A stretch of 40,939 nucleotides of DNA from positions 1 through 40,939 of the forward strand of contig JAAUPA010000011.1 in the NCBI GenBank assembly GCA_012034615.1. Direction: 5' to 3'. Shown here piece after piece: positions 2,896 through 40,939 of this stretch (within the stretch, counting starts at the first letter, position 1; each line of letters starts with the position of its first letter). Made by a program: the position numbers and the translations under genes. The stretch comes from Leptolyngbyaceae cyanobacterium CSU_1_4 (GTDB lineage: Bacteria > Cyanobacteriota > Cyanobacteriia > Elainellales > Elainellaceae). The notes beneath the pieces were generated by a model. That model saw nothing but the letters and a program-made list of their open reading frames with translations, was not told the DNA's origin and searched no databases.

Positions 2896-3898
2896 CTACA
2901 GTTTCACCGATTTCAACTGACTGCGCGGATCAAACGTACGATTCGCGCGTACCTTCTCATATAGCTCTCGCTCCACCTCCGTCAAGTCGGTCGGTGGCAC
3001 AATTAATATTTTCACGAACTGATCGCCCCGTCCATCTTTCACCTTCCGCCAGCCCTTGCCCCGCAAGCGCAACGTTTGCCCCGATCGAATGCCTGCTGGA
3101 ATATTCATCGTGACAGAACCCTCAGGGGTGGGCACTTCAATGGAGGCACCTAAGACGGCTTCATCCGGAGCGATCGCCACCTCACACAACAAATTATCCC
3201 CATCAAACTGGAAGAACGGATGGGGCTGGGTCTCCACCACCAAATACAAATCGCCCCGCTGCTGATTGTAAGGATTGATTTGCCCTTTCCCCTTCACCCG
3301 AATTCGGCTTCCTGGCTTTGCCCCCGGCGGAATTCGGACTGTGATCATTTCGCCACTCAAATTCAGGCGTTTTTGCACACCCTCAAACGCTTCCGCCAGC
3401 GTCAGGGCGATCGGCGACTCAATATCTTGCCCTGCCCCCGCCGGATCGCCACCATACCCAGAAAAATCTCCATACCCTGCCCCCGGTGCGCCCGGACGAT
3501 AGGTATAGCTGCTGCTACTGCTGCTTCTGCGCTGCGCTCCTGGAGGAGTGTTGCCAAACCGCCCCAACAGCTCATCAATAAACTCATCAAAATTGTTGTA
3601 CTTACCAAAGTCAACGCTATTTGCGCCCACTCCCCCCCCATCAGGGCGAGCCAGAGGCACCTGCCTGCTTCCAATACTGACCAAACTGGTCATACTTTCG
3701 CCGCTTATCTGGATCGGACAGCACCTCGTAAGCTTCACCCACCTCTTTAAATTTCGCTTCTGCCGATTTGTCTCCAGGATTTACGTCCGGATGGTATTTC
3801 CGCGCCTGTTTGCGATAGCTCTGCTTAATTTCATCAGCAGTGGCGCTTTTTCCTACACCCAGCGTCGCATAATAATCTTTGAAATCAGTCGCAGCCAT
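2896..3898 (-). CDS. dnaJ: DnaJ/CbpA-type co-chaperone (class II), with a +1 frameshift
   Basis: J-domain co-chaperone that delivers clients to DnaK and stimulates its ATPase in the cytoplasm. The 5' part (3898 down to ~3641) gives the J domain, residues ~1-72, with the essential HPD in [19 protein letters not shown]. The rest, in another frame, has a Gly/Ser-rich linker with the [13 protein letters not shown] helix, then two DnaJ C-terminal beta domains ([40 protein letters not shown]). No CxxCxGxG zinc repeats are present, so it is CbpA-like. Reading fails at a TGA (3641-3643) after QAGASGSP; deleting one base, for example in the CCC just before it, joins the frames and gives 333 residues, the normal family length. 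Start ATG at 3898. The single indel in a conserved gene suggests a sequence error rather than a pseudogene. Confidence 0.9.
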
Positions 3899-4028
3899 TC
3901 CGGTTTCCCTATGGATTTTACATAAAACACCTACCCCTAACCTATCAGGACTTTAAGTGATTTAGGTTCGGTTCGAGAGTAAGAAATAGAGCAATTTCCG
4001 TACCTGGCTCCAAATCTTCCACCTGCCC

Positions 4029-8541: not shown

Positions 8542-8583
8542 AGCGAACAGGGCTCCTCATAATCATTCTTCTGAATCACAGCC

Positions 8584-8634
8584 ACCCCTCCACTCCTCCA
8601 CTCCTCCACTCCTCCACCCCTCCACTCCCCTCCA
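8584..8634. repeat. 8-bp polypyrimidine tandem repeat
   Basis: Three perfect ACTCCTCC units (8592-8615) are flanked by variant ACCCCTCC units, giving about six copies over 51 bases of pure C/T/A sequence. It ends just outside the stop of the hybrid kinase gene. This is a slippage-prone microsatellite, and the rest of the 8374-8645 spacer shows no gene. Confidence 0.9.
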
Positions 8635-8645
8635 CAAGAGAACTC

Positions 8646-11600
8646 CTAGTAAGCCGACTTCATTTTTACAGAGGGATCAGGATGCACAGAGAAGGTGAGG
8701 ACGGTTTCGTCTACGCCTTTGAGTTGCAGCGGGCTGAACTTAGTAATGGTGTCTTCTTCTAGCTCTAAATAGTCTGCAACGGCGGCAGAAACCAGGATAG
8801 AGCTAGGTTCGGCGGCTTCTTGAATGCGGGCAGCAATGTTGACGCTAGGTCCGATCGCCGTATAGTCCGATCGCACAGAGCCGCCGAACATGCCGACCAC
8901 AGCAGTACCCTGATGAATGCCGCAGCGAAATTGCACTTTCGGAATGCCTTGCGCTTCCCAGCGATCGTTAAGAGCTGCGAGCGAGCGATACATTTGGCGG
9001 GCAGCGGCGATCGCGCGTTTTACTTGTTCATTCGGGCTAATTTCTTCAGGTGCTCCAAAAATTGCCAGAATTGCATCTCCCATAAATTTGTCTACCGTAC
9101 CGCCATTCTCAAAAATAGCGTGGGTCATTTCGGTTAAGTATTCGTTGAGCAGTTCGGCAACGCGGCGCGATCGCAAATTGTTCGAGAGTTGCGTAAACCC
9201 AATAATGTCACTGAACAAAATAGTAATCATGCGCGGCTCGGGGCGCAAATCAAGAGTGAGATTGCCCTCAGCCGCTTTCTTTACTAGCGAAGGCGGCAAG
9301 AAGCGCCCTAAAACCGATTCGGTTAGATAAGTGTTTAACGCAGCAACCCGTTGCTCGTTTTCTTTAAGAGCAAGCAGGTTACGCACCTCTGCCACCAATT
9401 CTCGATTGTTAAAAGGCTTAGACAGGTAAGCATCTGCCCCTTTTTCAGCACCTTCTAGCCGCGTATCTTCATCAGCTTTGGCAGTCAGCAGAATAATGGG
9501 AATTCCCCGCAACGCCTCATCCTGACGAATCATGCCAATCATTTCCAGCCCAGAGACCATCGGCATCATCAGATCAGTAATGATGAGATTAGGTCGATGG
9601 GATTGCACCACCTGGAAACCCTCAGCGCCATTCCGAGCCGTCAAAATTTGATGTCCCATCCGTTGCAACACGCCAGAAACATAGTTCCGCATATCGGCGT
9701 TGTCTTCTACCACCAAAATTGTGGCGGTTTTTGCCAGATCTGGGTTGCTTGGGGGGGCAGACAGCGTAGGAAGCGCCGCGACCCCTGGCGGGCTACTCGA
9801 AGCGATCGCCAGTTCAGAAGGCAGGGGATTTTCGGTGCACTGCTGCGAATCAGTGTCCACATCTGCCAGTTCAACCTGAGCTCGACTCTGTTCAATTTCT
9901 ACCGGGATCTCAATGATCTGAGCTGGGGGTAAGTGGGTTGTACCTGTTTGCAACCAAACTGAAAAGGTTGTGCCTTCGCCGTAAATGGATTCTACGGTGA
10001 CCTGCCCGCCATGCATTTCCACTAATTCTTTCACCAAAGACAGCCCCAAGCCGCTCCCTTCATGGCTGCGACTCGCCGACCCATCAGCTTGACGAAAGCG
10101 ATCGAACAAGTGAGGAATTTGGTCAGGACGAATGCCAATGCCCGTATCTTTAATCTGCATCAGGCAATGGTCGCCCTCTTGTCTGAGGATGATCTCAATT
10201 TTGCCGCCTGCTTCGGTGAACTTAATGGCGTTGGACAGTAAGTTGTAAAGAACTTTGTCAAATTTTTCTAGATCTAAATAAACGGGCGGACAGTCTTCTA
10301 AATGAGGCAATAGGCTGATTTGCTTTTTCTCACAGTACGAGTCGAAGGAGTCAACCACTTGACTGACAAACTCTAAAAGGTTGCAGGGACGAAACTTGGG
10401 CTGCATGAGTCCTGCGTCTAGGCGCTGCAAATCAAGAAGCTGATTAACCAGACGGAGTAAGCGGCGAGAATTGCGCAGAGCAATCACAGACTGGTCGTAG
10501 GAAAGTCCTTCTGCTTGGGCAACGGCAGATTCTAGGGGACCAATGGTCAGCGTTAAGGGTGTGCGGAACTCGTGGGAGACATTTTGGAAAAACTCGGTTT
10601 TTTGTTTGTCGAGTTCGAGCAATTGCTCTGCCTGCTGCCGCATGGTTTGGTACAAACGCGACTGTTGCACGGCGATCGCGCCTGAGCAGCTACAGCCTGA
10701 GCCAAGCCAATTTCAGCCGTCTCCCAGCGCCGAGGCTGGCGAGTTTGGCGCAAAGAAATGCTGCCAATGATTTTACCGTTGTACAGGAGCGGTACGACTA
10801 AGAGGGCACGAGCGGGCGATCGAAGCAACAAATCCGTCACATGCATTTCTAGCTGATCGCTCAAATCATCAATAATGACCGGAGCCTGCGTCTCAAGCAA
10901 TTGCTTTAAACAGGATTACCCTCAATCGGGGCTTTAGACTGCGGTAGCTGGGGCTGTTGCTCCTGATTTGCATCATGCAACCCCACGCACTGCACAAACT
11001 CATCTTCCTCAGTCCACAAAGACAAGGCACAGCCATCCGCATGAAGGGCTTGACCAAGCTGCTGAGTAATGGCGGCAAAAATTTCCTGAGGATCAAGACT
11101 AGAGCGGATCGCAGCCGTAATCGTGTTGACCAATGCCTCTCGTTTTGCCAAAGCTCGGACTTGCTCATAGGCTCTCGCCTGAGACAGGGCAAGGGCGGCT
11201 TGATCCGCCACCATCATAATGAGCTGAACCTCGTCGTCGTCCCAGGTGCGCGGCTTGCCGCATTGGTGCAGCGCCAAAACCGCCATCAAATCTTGCTGAA
11301 GAATGAGAGGCACAATGAGGCTAGAGACAATTCCAGCCGCCTGATAAGCCTGCCGACGCAGATCTTTAACATCTCCCTGAACTCGCTCATCGGTCTGAGC
11401 CTCGTTGATCACTTGGACTTGACGGGTTTCCCAAAGGGTATGCGCCAAGCTGCTAGAGCTGCCATCCATCCGCGACAAAGAGATTTCTGAGGGCAATTGC
11501 CCTTCGTCAGGAGCAGGAATGGTGTAAACAAACCACTCGTCTTCCAGTCGTCCGTCTTGAAAAGGGCGAAGAATACAGCAGTCTACTTCAAACATGTGCC

Positions 11601-12117
11601 CCACCGTCTCCACGATAGTTTGGAGAATCTCTTGGTAGCTGAGAGCACTGCGGATGGTGTTGGTGACCGCGTTGAGCAATGACTCTTGCCGCAGCGTCCG
11701 CTGAAGTTCTTGAGTCCGGGCTTTAAGAATGCTATGGGTATCTGCGGCTTGCCGCACTACTACTTTAAGTTCGTCGTCGTCCCAGGGCTTGGTGACATAT
11801 TTGAAGACTTTGCCAGAATTAATGGCTTCTACCAAGTCGCCTACATCGGTATAGCCGGTGAGAATGATCCGAATGGTGTCGGGGTATTGGGTGGCAGTCA
11901 GACCCAAAAACTCTGTGCCACTCATGAGGGGCATTCGTTGGTCTGAAATAATAACGGCGACTTCGCCTTGGCGATCGAGGATCTCAAGGGCAGCCGGACC
12001 ACTCTCTGCTTTTAGCACCTTAAACTCGCGGTGAAAGATGCGATAAAGCAGATCTAGGTTATCCGGTTCGTCATCAACAACAAGGATCGTGAACTTGGTT
12101 TTAGTCTTTACATTCAT
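8646..12117 (-). CDS. Giant hybrid: REC-GAF-GAF-GAF-histidine kinase-REC-class III nucleotide cyclase (two frameshifts)
   Basis: After correction this is 1157 residues. REC1 (residues 1-~125; phospho-Asp in IISDQRMP, D59) is followed by three GAF domains. Next come HisKA (VSHEFRTPL), HATPase (NLLSNAIKFT, DTGIGIRPDQI, GSGLGLSLVKEL), REC2 (IITDLMMP) and a C-terminal class III adenylyl/guanylyl cyclase. The cyclase keeps both metal aspartates (LFSDIIGFT, KFMGDAIL), the purine-selecting lysine of adenylyl cyclases and the transition-state Asn/Arg (VNIAAR). It should be a soluble phosphorelay enzyme making cAMP. Two single-base deletions split the reading: in GTTTA near 10907 (after EGNPV) and beside a HIP1 site near 10677 (after AVAAQA). 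Restoring both gives an exact codon count. MNVKTKTKF at 12117 is preferred as start; an upstream ATG at 12165 is possible. It is divergent from the GNAT gene. Confidence 0.9.
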
Positions 12118-12371
12118 AACTTTCAGCATTGATCTCGAAGAGATGCCTGCCTTCAGAGTTCCCAATTCTGGGAGAGCATAACCTTGAGAGAAGTAAAAGA
12201 AGGCAAAGAAATTTGAGGAATTTTGTGCTTTTCTTAATTCACTTTACTTTTTCTTAACTTAGGCGATCGCCAACCCTCAGTGATCTTTCTGAATTCAGTA
12301 GCAAAAGCTAGGTCGAAAATACCAGACTAAGATAGAGGCATTCCATCTCAGGCATTCCATCCCATTGAGTC

Positions 12372-15400: not shown

Positions 15401-18184
15401 ATGACTTCTTTAACAGACGCAGAGAAAAACCATTTTGCCAAGGAAAGTAGCCTTCTCCGCCGAATTAACCAGAGAATTCGACGATCGCTAGAGCTTGAAG
15501 ACATCTTAAGCACCACCGCAACCGAGGTGCGAGCCTTTTTAGGGAGCGATCGGGTCAAAATTTATCAGTTTCATTCAGACAAGAGCGGTAAAGTCGTGGC
15601 AGAGTCGATTCACAATAATCGGCTGCCTTCTTTGATGGGGCTAAGTTTTCCAGCCGATGATATTCCGGCTCAGGCGCGGCAGCTTTTTGTAGATATTCAG
15701 GCGCGGGTTGTGGTGGATGTGGCTAGCCGACAAATTGGACAGAGTTTTTATCGCAATTTAGAAACCGGAGAACAGATCGCCGAAGAGGTGCGCTATCGAC
15801 CGATCGAGCCTTGCCATGCCGAATATTTAACTGCCATGGGCGTGAAGTCTTCTCTGACGCTGCCCATTCTTTATCAGGATCAACTGTGGGGTTTACTCGT
15901 TGCCCATCATGCTGAACCCCAAGAAATTGCCATGCACGACTTACAGGCAGTTCAGGGCGTGGTCGATCAAATTTCAGTGGCGATCGCTCAATCGATGCTG
16001 CTTGCCCAAGCCCGCGATCGTGCCGAGCGAGAAGCACAGCTTAACCACATTACCAACCTGCTGCACTCTCGCTCCACCATTGAAATCCAGGCAGCCCTAG
16101 AAACAGCCGTTACCACCTTTGGCGGTTCTGGCGGCAGAGTGTGTATTAAATCTGAAGCGTTTAGTGAACAGGGTGGCTTGCCTCTCAGTTTTGAGAACTG
16201 CACTGAAGCCAATAACTGTGTTCTTCAGCTTTACCTCGACGGCACCCAGCCCACCATGCCTGAGTTGGCAATGTATCCTTTAATGGAGCAATACTCGGTT
16301 TGGCAAGAATACTTTCAAGCCCACAAGTTTCAGCCTTGGGCAATTTCAGATATTTACAATACCCCGCAGCTCCGAAACCTCCAGCCCGCCTTTCGCTCTA
16401 CAAAAATTCGGGGAATGTTGGTTGTGCCGCTTCAATACCGTCAACGAACGCTGGGTTATTTAAGCATTTTTCGAGACGAGCTTGCCACTGAAACACTTTG
16501 GGCGGGACAGTTTGACCCCGATCAGCGCCAGCTTTATCCTCGACAATCGTTTGAGCTTTGGCGTGATACTCGCAAAGCCCAAGTTTGTGAATGGACGGCA
16601 CAGGAAATCAAACTAGGTCGAACCTTGGGCATTCACTTTGCCACAGCCATTCAACAGTCAGAAACCCATCAACAGTTGCAAATCCTCAACGACAACTTAG
16701 AGCATCTCAACGCGGGGTTAGAGCAAAAAATATTTGAGCAAACCTCCGCACTTTGGCAAACCCACGAGCTCCAGCAGATTTTGTTTCAGGTTGTGGTTAA
16801 AATGCGGGATTCGCTTGACCTAGACACGATTTTTAAGACGACGGCTCAGGAATTGAGGCGATCGCTCAAAGTTGAGCGAGTTGGAATTTTTCGGTTTACA
16901 CCTGGCTCAAGCTGCGACGAGGGAGAGTTTGTCTCAGAAGATTGCTTACCAAATGTTTCTTCTAATTTGGGCAAGAAAGTCTGTGACCGCCACTTTCAAA
17001 AAGAATACGCGCCCTCTTATTACAAAGGGGGGAGGCAAGTTCTCAATGACGTTCGCAATTCTGGTCTAAAGGAATGTCACATAGCGTTACTCGAAAGCTT
17101 AGGAATTAAAGCACAAATCGTTATTCCTTTGGTTCGACAAGAAGAGCTGTGGGGACTTTTGTGCGTTCATCAATGCGCTCAGCCTCGACAATGGGAGCGT
17201 TCGGAAATTCAGTTTGTGACTCAAATTGCAGCCCAACTTGATGTGGCCATTCAGCAGGCAGAGTTGCTGGCTCAAACCCAAGAGCAATCCCATCAACTTG
17301 CGGAAACTTTAGCCAATCTCCAAGAAACCCAGCTCCAGCTCGTGCAAACCGAAAAAATGTCTAGTCTTGGGCATTTGGTGGCAGGTATTGCCCACGAAAT
17401 CAATAATCCGATCAATTTTATTCACGGCAATGTTCATCACATCAGTCGTTACATAGAGGACATTTTAGAACTGCTAGATCTTTACCAAAAACACTATGCT
17501 GATCCTTTGGCAGAAATTGATAACCGAGAACAAGAATTAGACCTCGACTTCTTGCGGGCAGACTTTCCAAAAATTCTGACCTCAATGAAGATAGGGACTG
17601 AGCGGATTCGTCAGATTGTTCTGTCGCTTAGAAATTTTTCGCGTCTTGACCAAGCTGATATGAAGCAGGTCGATCTGCATGAAGGCATTGATAGCACTCT
17701 TTTAATTTTGCAGCATCGCTTCAAAGCTCAATCTATTGATGAGATCGAGCTGATTAAAGAGTATGGGAATTTGCCGTTAGTGGAGTGTTATGCCGGACAA
17801 GTCAATCAGGTGTTAATGAATTTGTTGAGTAATGCGATCGATGCCCTGGAAGAAAGCACAGATTTTCTATCTTTGGATGCCGAAATTGAAAGTAGCCCTG
17901 AGGGCACGACAAAGCGTCCTACCATTCACATTCGGACTGAGGTTTTGGAGAATCAGCAGGTGGCAATTCGGATTGCTGACAATGGCATGGGGATTCCCGA
18001 AAAAGCTCGAAATAATTTATTTGATCCTTTTTTTACAACCAAGCCGATCGGGAAGGGCACGGGGTTAGGGTTGTCAATTAGTTACCAAATTATTACAGAC
18101 AAGCATCGGGGTAGCCTCAAATATTTTTCGGATCCCGGGAAAGGAACTGAATTTGTGATACAGCTTCCTATTCAAAAATCCTGA
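15401..18184 (+). CDS. Multi-GAF sensor histidine kinase with cyanobacteriochrome-type Cys-His
   Basis: 927 residues, no membrane segments. GAF1 (~25-200) is phytochrome/cyanobacteriochrome-like: SFPADDIPAQARQLF, then RPIEPCHAEYL with Cys138-His139 in the canonical bilin-attachment position. GAF2 (~205-425) is divergent. A coiled coil follows, then GAF3 (~470-640), which also has a Cys-His at the same place (LKECHIALLESLGIKA, Cys559). The kinase core carries the phospho-His in GIAHEINNPINFIHGNV (His665), N box NLLSNAIDALEE, IADNGMGIPEKARNNLFDPFF and GKGTGLGLSISYQII. No receiver domain is fused, so its partner response regulator is elsewhere. I infer a light-responsive cytoplasmic kinase. Chromophore attachment is predicted from the motif only, and GAF3's Cys-His is commonly seen without bilin binding. 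The upstream spacer repeats ACCGAACTTA. Confidence 0.93.
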   Translation: MTSLTDAEKNHFAKESSLLRRINQRIRRSLELEDILSTTATEVRAFLGSDRVKIYQFHSDKSGKVVAESIHNNRLPSLMGLSFPADDIPAQARQLFVDIQARVVVDVASRQIGQSFYRNLETGEQIAEEVRYRPIEPCHAEYLTAMGVKSSLTLPILYQDQLWGLLVAHHAEPQEIAMHDLQAVQGVVDQISVAIAQSMLLAQARDRAEREAQLNHITNLLHSRSTIEIQAALETAVTTFGGSGGRVCIKSEAFSEQGGLPLSFENCTEANNCVLQLYLDGTQPTMPELAMYPLMEQYSVWQEYFQAHKFQPWAISDIYNTPQLRNLQPAFRSTKIRGMLVVPLQYRQRTLGYLSIFRDELATETLWAGQFDPDQRQLYPRQSFELWRDTRKAQVCEWTAQEIKLGRTLGIHFATAIQQSETHQQLQILNDNLEHLNAGLEQKIFEQTSALWQTHELQQILFQVVVKMRDSLDLDTIFKTTAQELRRSLKVERVGIFRFTPGSSCDEGEFVSEDCLPNVSSNLGKKVCDRHFQKEYAPSYYKGGRQVLNDVRNSGLKECHIALLESLGIKAQIVIPLVRQEELWGLLCVHQCAQPRQWERSEIQFVTQIAAQLDVAIQQAELLAQTQEQSHQLAETLANLQETQLQLVQTEKMSSLGHLVAGIAHEINNPINFIHGNVHHISRYIEDILELLDLYQKHYADPLAEIDNREQELDLDFLRADFPKILTSMKIGTERIRQIVLSLRNFSRLDQADMKQVDLHEGIDSTLLILQHRFKAQSIDEIELIKEYGNLPLVECYAGQVNQVLMNLLSNAIDALEESTDFLSLDAEIESSPEGTTKRPTIHIRTEVLENQQVAIRIADNGMGIPEKARNNLFDPFFTTKPIGKGTGLGLSISYQIITDKHRGSLKYFSDPGKGTEFVIQLPIQKS

Positions 18185-32336: not shown

Positions 32337-35089
32337 CTACACTTCCCGCACCACTAGAATAACGTTTTCTGTGAATTTCTCGAAGGTGTCGTCGTGGCTA
32401 ATGACGAAGAGTTGACGGAAGGTTTTGATATTGGCGATCGCCTCTGCTAAGCTTTCTCGTCTGGGTCGATCCATATTAGTAGTAGGTTCATCAAAAAAGG
32501 CGATATCGATATCTGCCAATACCCGCAACAGCGCTAACCGGACTGCTAATGCTGCACACATTTGTTCGCCACCGGATAGATTGATGAATCGACGATTATG
32601 AGCGCCTTCTTGCACAATAATTTCGTAATCTTTTGTCCATTCCAGCGCCACGTTAGGGCGATTGACTAATTCGCGGAAGAGGCGATCGGCTTCGTGAGAA
32701 ATATTTTGCACATAGCGTTCAGTAATACGAGGTCCGGCTTCTTTATAGGCTTTGCGAGCGAAGGAGATAAAGCGTTTAATTTTCTCGGTTTGTTTAAGTT
32801 CTTCGACGGCGCGATCGCGTTTCTCGGCAATACCTTGGAGCGTTGCGATTTGGGTGCTAATTTCCATCAGCCGCTTGCGCTGTTGCGGCAATCCTCCAGA
32901 AAGTTGATCGGCTTGACTACGCCTGTGACTGTACGCAGTTTCAACTTGTTTCCAAAGTTCGGGATCGTAATCCTTAAGGAGGCGATCGCTCTCGGTCTGA
33001 GTATTATTCTGTTCGGTTTGTAATTCTTGTAGCTGAACAGTTGCTGTTTGTAGTTCTGGTTCTAGTTTACGAAGCTGGTTAGCATCGTTTTGATATTGCA
33101 GATAAGTTAGATACGCAGACTGGTGATTTTGACGGTTCTGTTTCTGTTCCTCAATCTGTATCTCCAGGTCGGCAAATTCATTAAGTTGATCGTTAAATTG
33201 ATTGATTAGTGCCTGTACCTGATCGCATTGTTCAACAATGGCTAACTGTTGGCGAATTAGATTAGGATGCTGTTGTAAATCTCTGGTTAAAAGCTGACTC
33301 CGACCGCGTGGATCGGCAAGGTTCGTGAGGCTGGCGGCGAGGTGCGATCGCTGTTGCTGAAGTTCTGGCTCGGTGGCTAACTGTTGAGTGAGGACAGAGA
33401 GGCGATCGGTTAATTGATCAACTTCTCTTAGGAGGCTGGCTTGCTGCGATCGCTTGACGGCTAAACCAGAGAGTTCGGCGCGCGATGGGTAAGCAATATC
33501 AAGCTTCGTTTTAATGTGTTGGAGCTGCTGCTGAAGCTTAGGAACAGAAGTTTGTTCAGATAAATCTGCCAGAATTTTCCACAGTGAATTGATTAACTCG
33601 GTGTTAAGTTCTATCCCAGCTTCGATCGTTTCTAGGGCAAGTTGGGCGGCAGGGAGCGGCGAGGTTTGCAAGATTTTTCTAAGAGCTTCAATGGTGTCTT
33701 CGGCTTGCTGTTGATGACGATCGCCCCTCGTTTCACCATCACTAACCAATTGCCGAAACTCGGCTTCAAACTGTTTGGCGGCTTCAACTCGGCTCAGTTG
33801 TTCTTGCAGGCGATCGCGCTTTGCTCCCATTCAGGAATCTGCTCTACCGCTGCTGCTAAGGCTTGAATGCGATCGATTTCTTGGGTCAGCTTGGCTTGCT
33901 CGGCTTGCAGTTTGGCAATTTGGCGGCTCAAACTTTGCTGTTCTAACTTGACTGCTTGGAGTTGATTAAACTGGTCGGTCAGGTTGGCTTGCTGCTGTTC
34001 CAAATCGGCTTGTTGCACGACTAACGGCTGCATCTGTTCAATTTCTGCGGCTGCTTGGGTGAGATTTTCGAGTTGCAGATTGACTTTGGTGAGTTGGGTT
34101 TGTTGCGCCACCATTGCTGCTTGCTGTTTTTCTCGCTGTTTAATTAATAACTGTTTTCGTTTGGCTTGTTGATCAAATTCTTCGAGCTGCGCCTCGGCTC
34201 TTAGAACAGCTTGATAGCTTTCTTTATTTTGCGTACAAATGGCAACTGCCGATTGCGATCGCTCCACCAACTGCAAGATTCTCGTCTGTGTCTGCTGTGC
34301 GGCTTCTGCTTTAACCGTAATTTGCTGCAACCGAGAAGTAATAGTCTGCACGGCTTGAGCTTGCGTGGATAGGCATTCTTTTTCACTCTGGAGCTCATTT
34401 AACTCAGTTTGTAACTGCTGCAAGCTAGCTTCGTTGGCGGTAATTTCTTGGCTAACCATGTTTTGACGGTGCTGCAAAGGCTGCCATTCTTGCAGACTTT
34501 CTTCGTACTGAGCGATCGCCGCTTCCAGTTTTTCTACTTCTGCTTTACCGTGCTTCTCCAAAGACAGCATTTGCTGATTCGTTTGTCGATATTCACCCAC
34601 CTTCAGAATTGCATCAAAAGTTAATTTCCGTTTCTCAGAAGCTTGCAAAAAATCGGCGGTAAACATTCCCTGCGGCACGCCGATCGTGTTGGCAAAAAGC
34701 TGTCCTAAATCTGTTCCAGGTGCAACGCCAAACTGCTGCCGTAACCACGGCATAATTTCATCTTCAATATGCTTATAATCGAGCCGCACATTAAGCTGTG
34801 GATCAAACAGCGTATAGCCTTTGGTGGTGCAGCGCTCCACTTCGTAAGTGCGTCCGTCTCGGCTAGAAATGAATGCCACTCTGGCTTGGGCGCTGCCTGC
34901 CCCGTTGCGAATTAAATCGTCTTTGTTATAGCCGCCTCGGTAATTAAACAATGTCCAGGCGATCGCTTCTAAAATACTGGTTTTCCCGGCTCCATTTTCG
35001 CCACAAATAGCATTGGTTCCGGGCTGAAAAATGAACTGGCGATCGCTGTGGGACTTAAAGTTTTTGAGAGTAACCGAGAGAATTTCCAT
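32337..35089 (-). CDS. sbcC: SbcC/Rad50-like SMC-family ATPase, with a -1 frameshift
   Basis: Corrected, this is 917 residues. The N-terminal ATPase lobe (MEILSVTLKNFKSHSDR, Walker A CGENGAGKTSILEAIAW) is followed by ~550 residues of coiled coil. The C-terminal lobe has FINLSGGEQMCAALAVRLAL and Walker B IAFFDEPTTNMDRPRRESLA. In SbcC-SbcD or Rad50-Mre11 the partner is a metallophosphatase; none is adjacent here. No CxxC zinc-hook motif is visible at the coiled-coil apex, unlike standard Rad50/SbcC. The frame breaks at ~33815, where one base is missing just before a HIP1 site (EWEQ / RDRLQEQLSRVEA). Restoring it gives exactly 918 codons. Start ATG 35089, not 35125, from homology to the family N terminus. 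Confidence 0.92.
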
Positions 35090-35122
35090 ACGCTGTTCAG
35101 ATCGCTGTCCCAAAATATTAGT

Positions 35123-35168
35123 CAAAACTCGCTCTGTAGAACAATTGCACCACAGAAAATGAGTTTTG
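35123..35168. repeat. Inverted repeat between por and the SbcC-like gene
   Basis: CAAAACTC (35123-35130) and GAGTTTTG (35161-35168) with an inner CTGTAG/CACAG pair form an imperfect hairpin in the gap. No T-run follows on either strand. It may be a weak por terminator or an operator for the downstream operon. Confidence 0.4.
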
Positions 35169-35179
35169 GCACGTGAATT

Positions 35180-36181
<1,002 letters not shown>

Positions 36182-36354
36182 TCAGGATCTCACATGATGG
36201 CGATCGGATGTCAATCTAAGTGAATTAAGTTAAACAAATGTCAATTAAGTATACGATTTCCTCGTTGTTCGTCGGTCAGCGATCCTAGGGTTGGCTCCCA
36301 GATTCTGTTTACAGATTTTGGTAAAATAAGACGAATGACCCTTAGGTGATCTCA

Positions 36355-37022
36355 ATGGCTCACGCTCTAGTCAACGCAACGTCTCCACAACGCGATCGCC
36401 CTTCCCCCTGGCAACCCGCAACTTGGGCTGATTATCTGGCTCTGTGTGATGCCCCTAACATCGAGCGCATTCGCATATTTTTTGATGAAGGATTGATGTG
36501 GACTGAAATGGGCGAAGAAGGGCTTAATCATTCAAGTGTCTGTGATTTGTTTACAATGCTGATTGCTTTTTGGAAAGCCAGCCATCCTGAACAAATTATT
36601 TATTCACTGGGTCGCTGCCAACTTGAAAAAACAGGTCATAAAGCCTGCGCTCCTGATTTGGTTGTTTATCTGGGAGAACCGCCACCGCGTTGGCAACCCG
36701 GACAACGGCGATTCGTCAACCTGGATCAGGCAGGGCTTCCGGCGCTGGTGGGCGAAGTATCTGATACGACGCTGGCGAATGATTTGGATCGTAAAAAGCA
36801 CCTTTATGCGGCGCTAGGGATCCCTGAGTATTGGGTGATTGATGTGCGAGGAAGACAAGTTCTAGCATTTCTGCTGCAAGCGGATGGCAGCTATGCCGAG
36901 TGTGATACTCTGAGGCATTTGCAGGATTGGCGATTACTTTGTTAGAACAAACTCTGGAACGTCTGGATCAAGAAGCAAATACCGATGCAGCGCTGTGGTT
37001 TTCACAGCAGTTAGCATCCTAG
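36355..37022 (+). CDS. Uma2/DUF820-family endonuclease-like protein, with a -1 frameshift
   Basis: Corrected, this is 222 residues. The family is a PD-(D/E)XK-fold protein common and multi-copy in cyanobacteria. Visible are PDLVVYLGEPPPR, LVGEVSDTTLANDLDRKKHL and YAALGIPEYWVIDV, the conserved Uma2 core with likely catalytic D...E...K residues. Reading ends early (DWRLLC), but the next frame gives the family tail EAFAGLAITLLEQTLERL, ending at TAG 37022. One missing base near 36907 joins the two. ATG 36355 is preferred over GTG 36346. The biological role of Uma2 proteins is unknown. Confidence 0.87.
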
Positions 37023-40222: not shown

Positions 40223-40939
40223 TTATGGGCTAAAGACGGCTTGAATTTCATTGCCCCAAGTGAGGCGGAGCTGATACTGTGCATTGCCATTGCTAACTGC
40301 TATTTCGACCCAGCCATGACTGCCAATGAGGGCGACGGGCTGACCAGGCTGAACTTCTCCATAGGTGCGGCAGCCAGGAATAGAGCGTTTACCCACCGTA
40401 ACCGACCAAGCTTTTCCCTGAACGAGATGACCCGGAATAGTGGTGATGACGTTGCCAAAGCGATCGACATATTGGACGCTACCCGTGCAGCCTGTCGCCG
40501 TGACAGTACAAACGGGGATCAGTAGCCTGATTAGGGTAGCCGGATCGATCGCCCTTCCTAGGTCAGCGATCGCCACACCACTCGCCAAATGAGCGCCCAC
40601 AGGTGCAAAAATATCGCGCCCATGAAAAGTGCTGCTGGGGTTTGCATTGCGCCAATATTGAGAGTTCGTGAGTTCGACCGCCTGAACGATCGCCCGATTA
40701 GACAATAATCCGGTAAAAATTCCGTTATCAGGACCTACCAAAAAACCATCTGTAAGCTGAATGGCGATCGCCCGCCGCTTGCCCCCTACTCCTGGATCAA
40801 CCACCGTCACATGCACCGTGTCAGCAGGAAAAAAGGATAAGGCATTCATCAAATTAAAACTGTGCCGCCATCACATCTTGAGGCTCAATTTGATGGGTCA
40901 GATCAATCACTTTAAGCAGGGGGTTGACTTGAGCAATCA
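40223..40939 (-). CDS. SAM hydroxide adenosyltransferase (DUF62), 5' end cut by the window, +1 frameshift
   Basis: Nearly complete DUF62 protein (SAM + hydroxide to adenosine + methionine). Signatures are TVVDPGVGGKRRAIAI, FLVGPDNGIFTGLLSN, SSTFHGRDIFAPVGAHLASG and the C-terminal YVDRFGNVITTIPG. The last bases of the window (minus, from 40939) encode VNPLLKVIDLTHQIEPQDVM, which continues as AAQF and then hits TAA. The main frame begins NLMNALSFFPADTVHV. Removing one T from the TTTT at ~40855-40858 joins them, so the ATG at 40852 is not the true start. The true start lies outside the window. The SAM/nucleophile-binding Asp and Asn residues are kept. Confidence 0.88.

Follow-up and report, generated by a model that had tools for sequence, protein, structure and literature searches.

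The window, a stretch of 40,939 nucleotides from a draft genome of 379 contigs, carries on its minus strand at positions 8646..12117 an orthologue of cyaC whose frame is broken twice in the assembly, as seen from its reading frames, matches in relatives, and a match to a solved structure. Open reading frames and their translations place the coding of 12117-8646 in three frames: a first piece of 419 aa (ORF 12165-10906, with its start taken as the TTG at 12165), a middle piece at about 10906-10680, and a third piece of 674 aa (ORF 10670-8646), all on the minus strand. By coordinate arithmetic, restoring one base at each break gives a protein of 1157 residues that starts at the ATG at 12117, and on that assumption the length given in the first-pass annotation agrees with the coordinates. 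Short G-rich repeats (ggagtggagg-like) are present at 8575-8630, just 3' of the cyaC stop.

Pfam searches of the pieces identified Response_reg, GAF, HisKA, HATPase_c, Response_reg, and Guanylate_cyc, and the domain order along the minus strand from 12117 to 8646 is REC, GAF, GAF, HisKA, HATPase, REC, and class III cyclase. The first receiver (REC1; 11755..12087, PF00072) has its phospho-acceptor Asp at 11943-11941 and is followed by GAF1 (11185..11634, residues 178-327, PF01590) and GAF2 (10679..11094), the latter divided by the first frame break, detected by Pfam on the middle piece, and corresponding to residues 358-500 in an intact relative. The HisKA domain (10410..10604, PF00512) contains the phospho-accepting His at 10574-10572, and the HATPase_c domain (9948..10268, PF02518) precedes a second receiver (REC2; 9384..9719, PF00072) with its Asp at 9575-9573, so that the His and both receiver Asp residues are present. 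The C-terminal class III nucleotide cyclase (8685..9230, PF00211) has the complete set of D, K, D, T, N, and R, with the first codon bases of the metal-binding Asp residues at 9209 and 9077, Lys at 9089, Thr at 8861, Asn at 8840, and Arg at 8828 on the minus strand. The Pfam search thus returned the succession of domains that the first-pass annotation had proposed, apart from its count of three GAFs: in the same-genus relative with the whole gene, Pfam detects two GAF stretches, and a third was ruled out because the interdomain spaces in the window pieces and in that relative are too short to hold it.

The window gene is an orthologue of CyaC, a cyanobacterial class III adenylate cyclase with two-component domains. 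The best match of its protein to a solved structure is the adenylate cyclase chain 1wc1 (E 4.6e-78), which we take to be CyaC of Spirulina platensis. When 1wc1 was searched back into the window genome, the cyaC locus ranked first (68% identity, E 1.2e-79), making the two reciprocal best matches; the next of the seven genome matches reached 32% (E 3.5e-22), and the six other cyclase-like matches were 26-36% identical to 1wc1 compared with 68% for the cyaC locus. A cyaC match was found in 45 of the 60 related genomes searched (E ≤ 1e-120), and the named collection holds at least 80 cyaC loci, largely from Nostocales. A single protein joining these domains is not a new combination, as the intact gene is widespread in cyanobacteria, and the window gene is an ordinary member of the well-studied CyaC, already known.

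Single-frame orthologues of at least 1050 aa were recovered from 100 distinct loci, all of which share the kinase His, the REC2 Asp, and the six cyclase residues without exception, bearing out the earlier proposal that the cyclase keeps its catalytic residues. Of these, 96 have the REC1 Asp and the other four a gap in its place; gaps occur at REC1 positions in 3 to 15 of the 100, and some of the listed rows begin late because their locus ends there. At the position of the adenine-side Asp, the window cyclase and all 100 orthologues have Thr, a replacement that we take to denote a class IIIb cyclase. Pfam families were identical in the nine orthologues scanned (9/9 of the 100). The intact same-genus gene, in genome G001, occupies one frame, encodes 1165 aa from a TTG start with two GAFs and the same Pfam set, and is 95% identical to the window protein over the C-terminal half. 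Beside cyaC, glgC occurs in the same genus alone (L005 and L034, one genome); it was found beside cyaC in none of the 80 named loci and in none of the other loci among the 46 examined, where flanks are often short, and a lasting link between the two genes was rejected as the adjacency is confined to the same genus.

Compared with the same-genus relative, in which the gene is intact, the window gene is one base short at each break: at 10905..10912 (near 10908) for the first, and at 10672..10680 (near 10679) for the second, which adjoins a GCGATCGC (HIP1-type) site. No compensating change was seen near either break in the alignment to G001. The dN/dS values of the three pieces (0.032, 0.076, and 0.037) are close to that of the neighbouring glgC (0.026), which indicates that purifying selection acted on the protein at least until very recent times. 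The frame was also tested in 123 loci, several of which are second copies of one gene, leaving out L002-L004 (other kinases) and with L035 and L036 lacking the gene. The frame was intact in 101 of the 123, and none of the other orthologues was broken at the places seen in the window. Besides the window locus (L001), frame changes occurred in four genomes (L011/L041, L022/L042/L051, L025/L043/L049, and L039), at about residues 359-363, 523, 110, and 878-884 of the relative; two of these genomes are titled MAGs, and the assemblies of the other two have completeness values of 83% and 68%. All other loci that fell below the cut either run into a contig or locus end or are split without a frame change (L110 and L111).

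Breaks of this kind are not confined to cyaC in the draft genome. Together with a further piece of that genome, one of 20 retrieved, the window was aligned to G001 over about 53.7 kb, in which there are 8 frame-break sites in 7 genes; two of the 10 break rows found were shadow reading frames of other rows, and five reverse-search rows appear, by position, to be the sites already counted, viewed in the opposite direction. In the window, the frame is also broken in genes which by eye we take to encode a DnaJ-type protein (2896-3961, near 3647), an SbcC-type ATPase (32340-35194, near 33820), a Uma2-like protein (36325-37019, near 36905), and a SAM-dependent adenosyl-hydrolase type protein (40232-40937, near 40834, where three indels lie close together). 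On the further piece, a break at L163:12176 is close to a C terminus and either genome could be off, and another interrupts the sole copy in the genome of the glpX-type fructose bisphosphatase (L163:476-1584, G000:C347), an enzyme needed in the cyanobacterial Calvin cycle. Two of the eight sites (window 10672 and 33810) lie within 3 bases of GCGATCGC; positions no more than 2 bases from such a site make up 1.9% of the window. This is suggestive of HIP1-type sites as a cause, with numbers too few for a claim, and may point to systematic base-calling error.

An error-rich assembly would explain all eight breaks at once, including the one in the sole glpX-type fructose bisphosphatase, and from the sequence both cyaC breaks are probably single-base draft-assembly errors. 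The frame as given is interrupted twice, which the first-pass annotation had named as the observation that would count against a protein made in one piece, if confirmed; we judge that these interruptions probably come from the assembly. Alternatively, the breaks could be real and recent, in which case the window gene is a broken cyaC, a pseudogene in an organism without full-length CyaC. Two breaks do fall within this one gene, less than 230 bases apart, compared with about 0.5 expected per 3.5 kb at the average density, which is somewhat above prediction, and the matches listed for the genome include no second gene with this architecture. Since CyaC is not known to be essential, a genuine loss of very recent date would be indistinguishable from an error. 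However, all cyaC pieces show constraint like that on glgC, and the same assembly also breaks the sole Calvin-cycle fructose bisphosphatase and several other genes, making such a loss unlikely.

Less probable still is a reading in which real breaks leave a gene that works either through programmed frameshifting or in pieces, with the sensor apart from the kinase-cyclase, even though every piece retains its domains and residues. The first break cuts GAF2 inside the domain, and by eye its site does not match a standard slippery heptamer in the reading frame concerned. No other broken orthologue shares either site, and 100 distinct orthologues are whole. A shared or programmed frameshift was rejected on this ground, the other broken orthologues being broken elsewhere. 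The best explanation, to which we assign a probability of about 0.9, is a CyaC orthologue that is presumably functional in the organism, with a putative relay to REC2 that would raise cAMP and with breaks that are probable assembly errors. The locus extends a conserved cyanobacterial cAMP enzyme to one more species, and its frame breaks caution against reading those in this draft genome as biology.

By analogy, our best guess is that activity and phosphotransfer order in the window protein follow the published CyaC model. The histidine kinase would autophosphorylate on the His at 10574, the phosphate would move to the Asp of the second receiver, and the phosphorylated receiver would in turn stimulate the C-terminal cyclase to make more cAMP. 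The relay to a receiver controlling the cyclase, as first annotated, matches that model; the union of these domains in one protein is itself not new. Tuning of the enzyme may come from the GAFs and from the first receiver, the latter possibly via phosphate from another kinase. Such upstream control, also suggested in the first-pass annotation, has a parallel in Anabaena, where AphC purportedly phosphorylates CyaC (PMC4284465). That control was reportedly published in 2004. A phytochrome-like histidine kinase (two GAFs, partial PHY, HATPase) is encoded 3 kb from cyaC at 15401-18184, is also syntenic in G001, and is a possible candidate partner.

CyaC converts the signal of a phosphate relay into cAMP as a messenger, and its cAMP synthesis is reportedly activated by autophosphorylation and bicarbonate. 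We take CyaC of Spirulina (Arthrospira) platensis to have an architecture like that of the window gene, with two receivers flanking a histidine kinase and a C-terminal class III cyclase, and its catalytic domain to be that of PDB entries 1wc0-1wc6. Work by Kasahara in 1997 and by Kasahara and Ohmori in 1999 reportedly established the working order of kinase, receiver, and cyclase, the latter study reportedly with residue-level results on the relay. The catalytic domain of the S. platensis enzyme is 68% identical to that of the window and has the same active-site residues, a comparison that covers the catalytic-domain sequence; the window gene differs in having its frame broken in the assembly. 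Compared with the intact same-genus protein, the listed orthologues from Nostoc and its relatives show 64-66% identity. In Anabaena sp. PCC 7120, CyaC (all4963) is described as an adenylate cyclase with two-component sensor and regulator domains, for which FurA is marked as an activator (PMC12282138).
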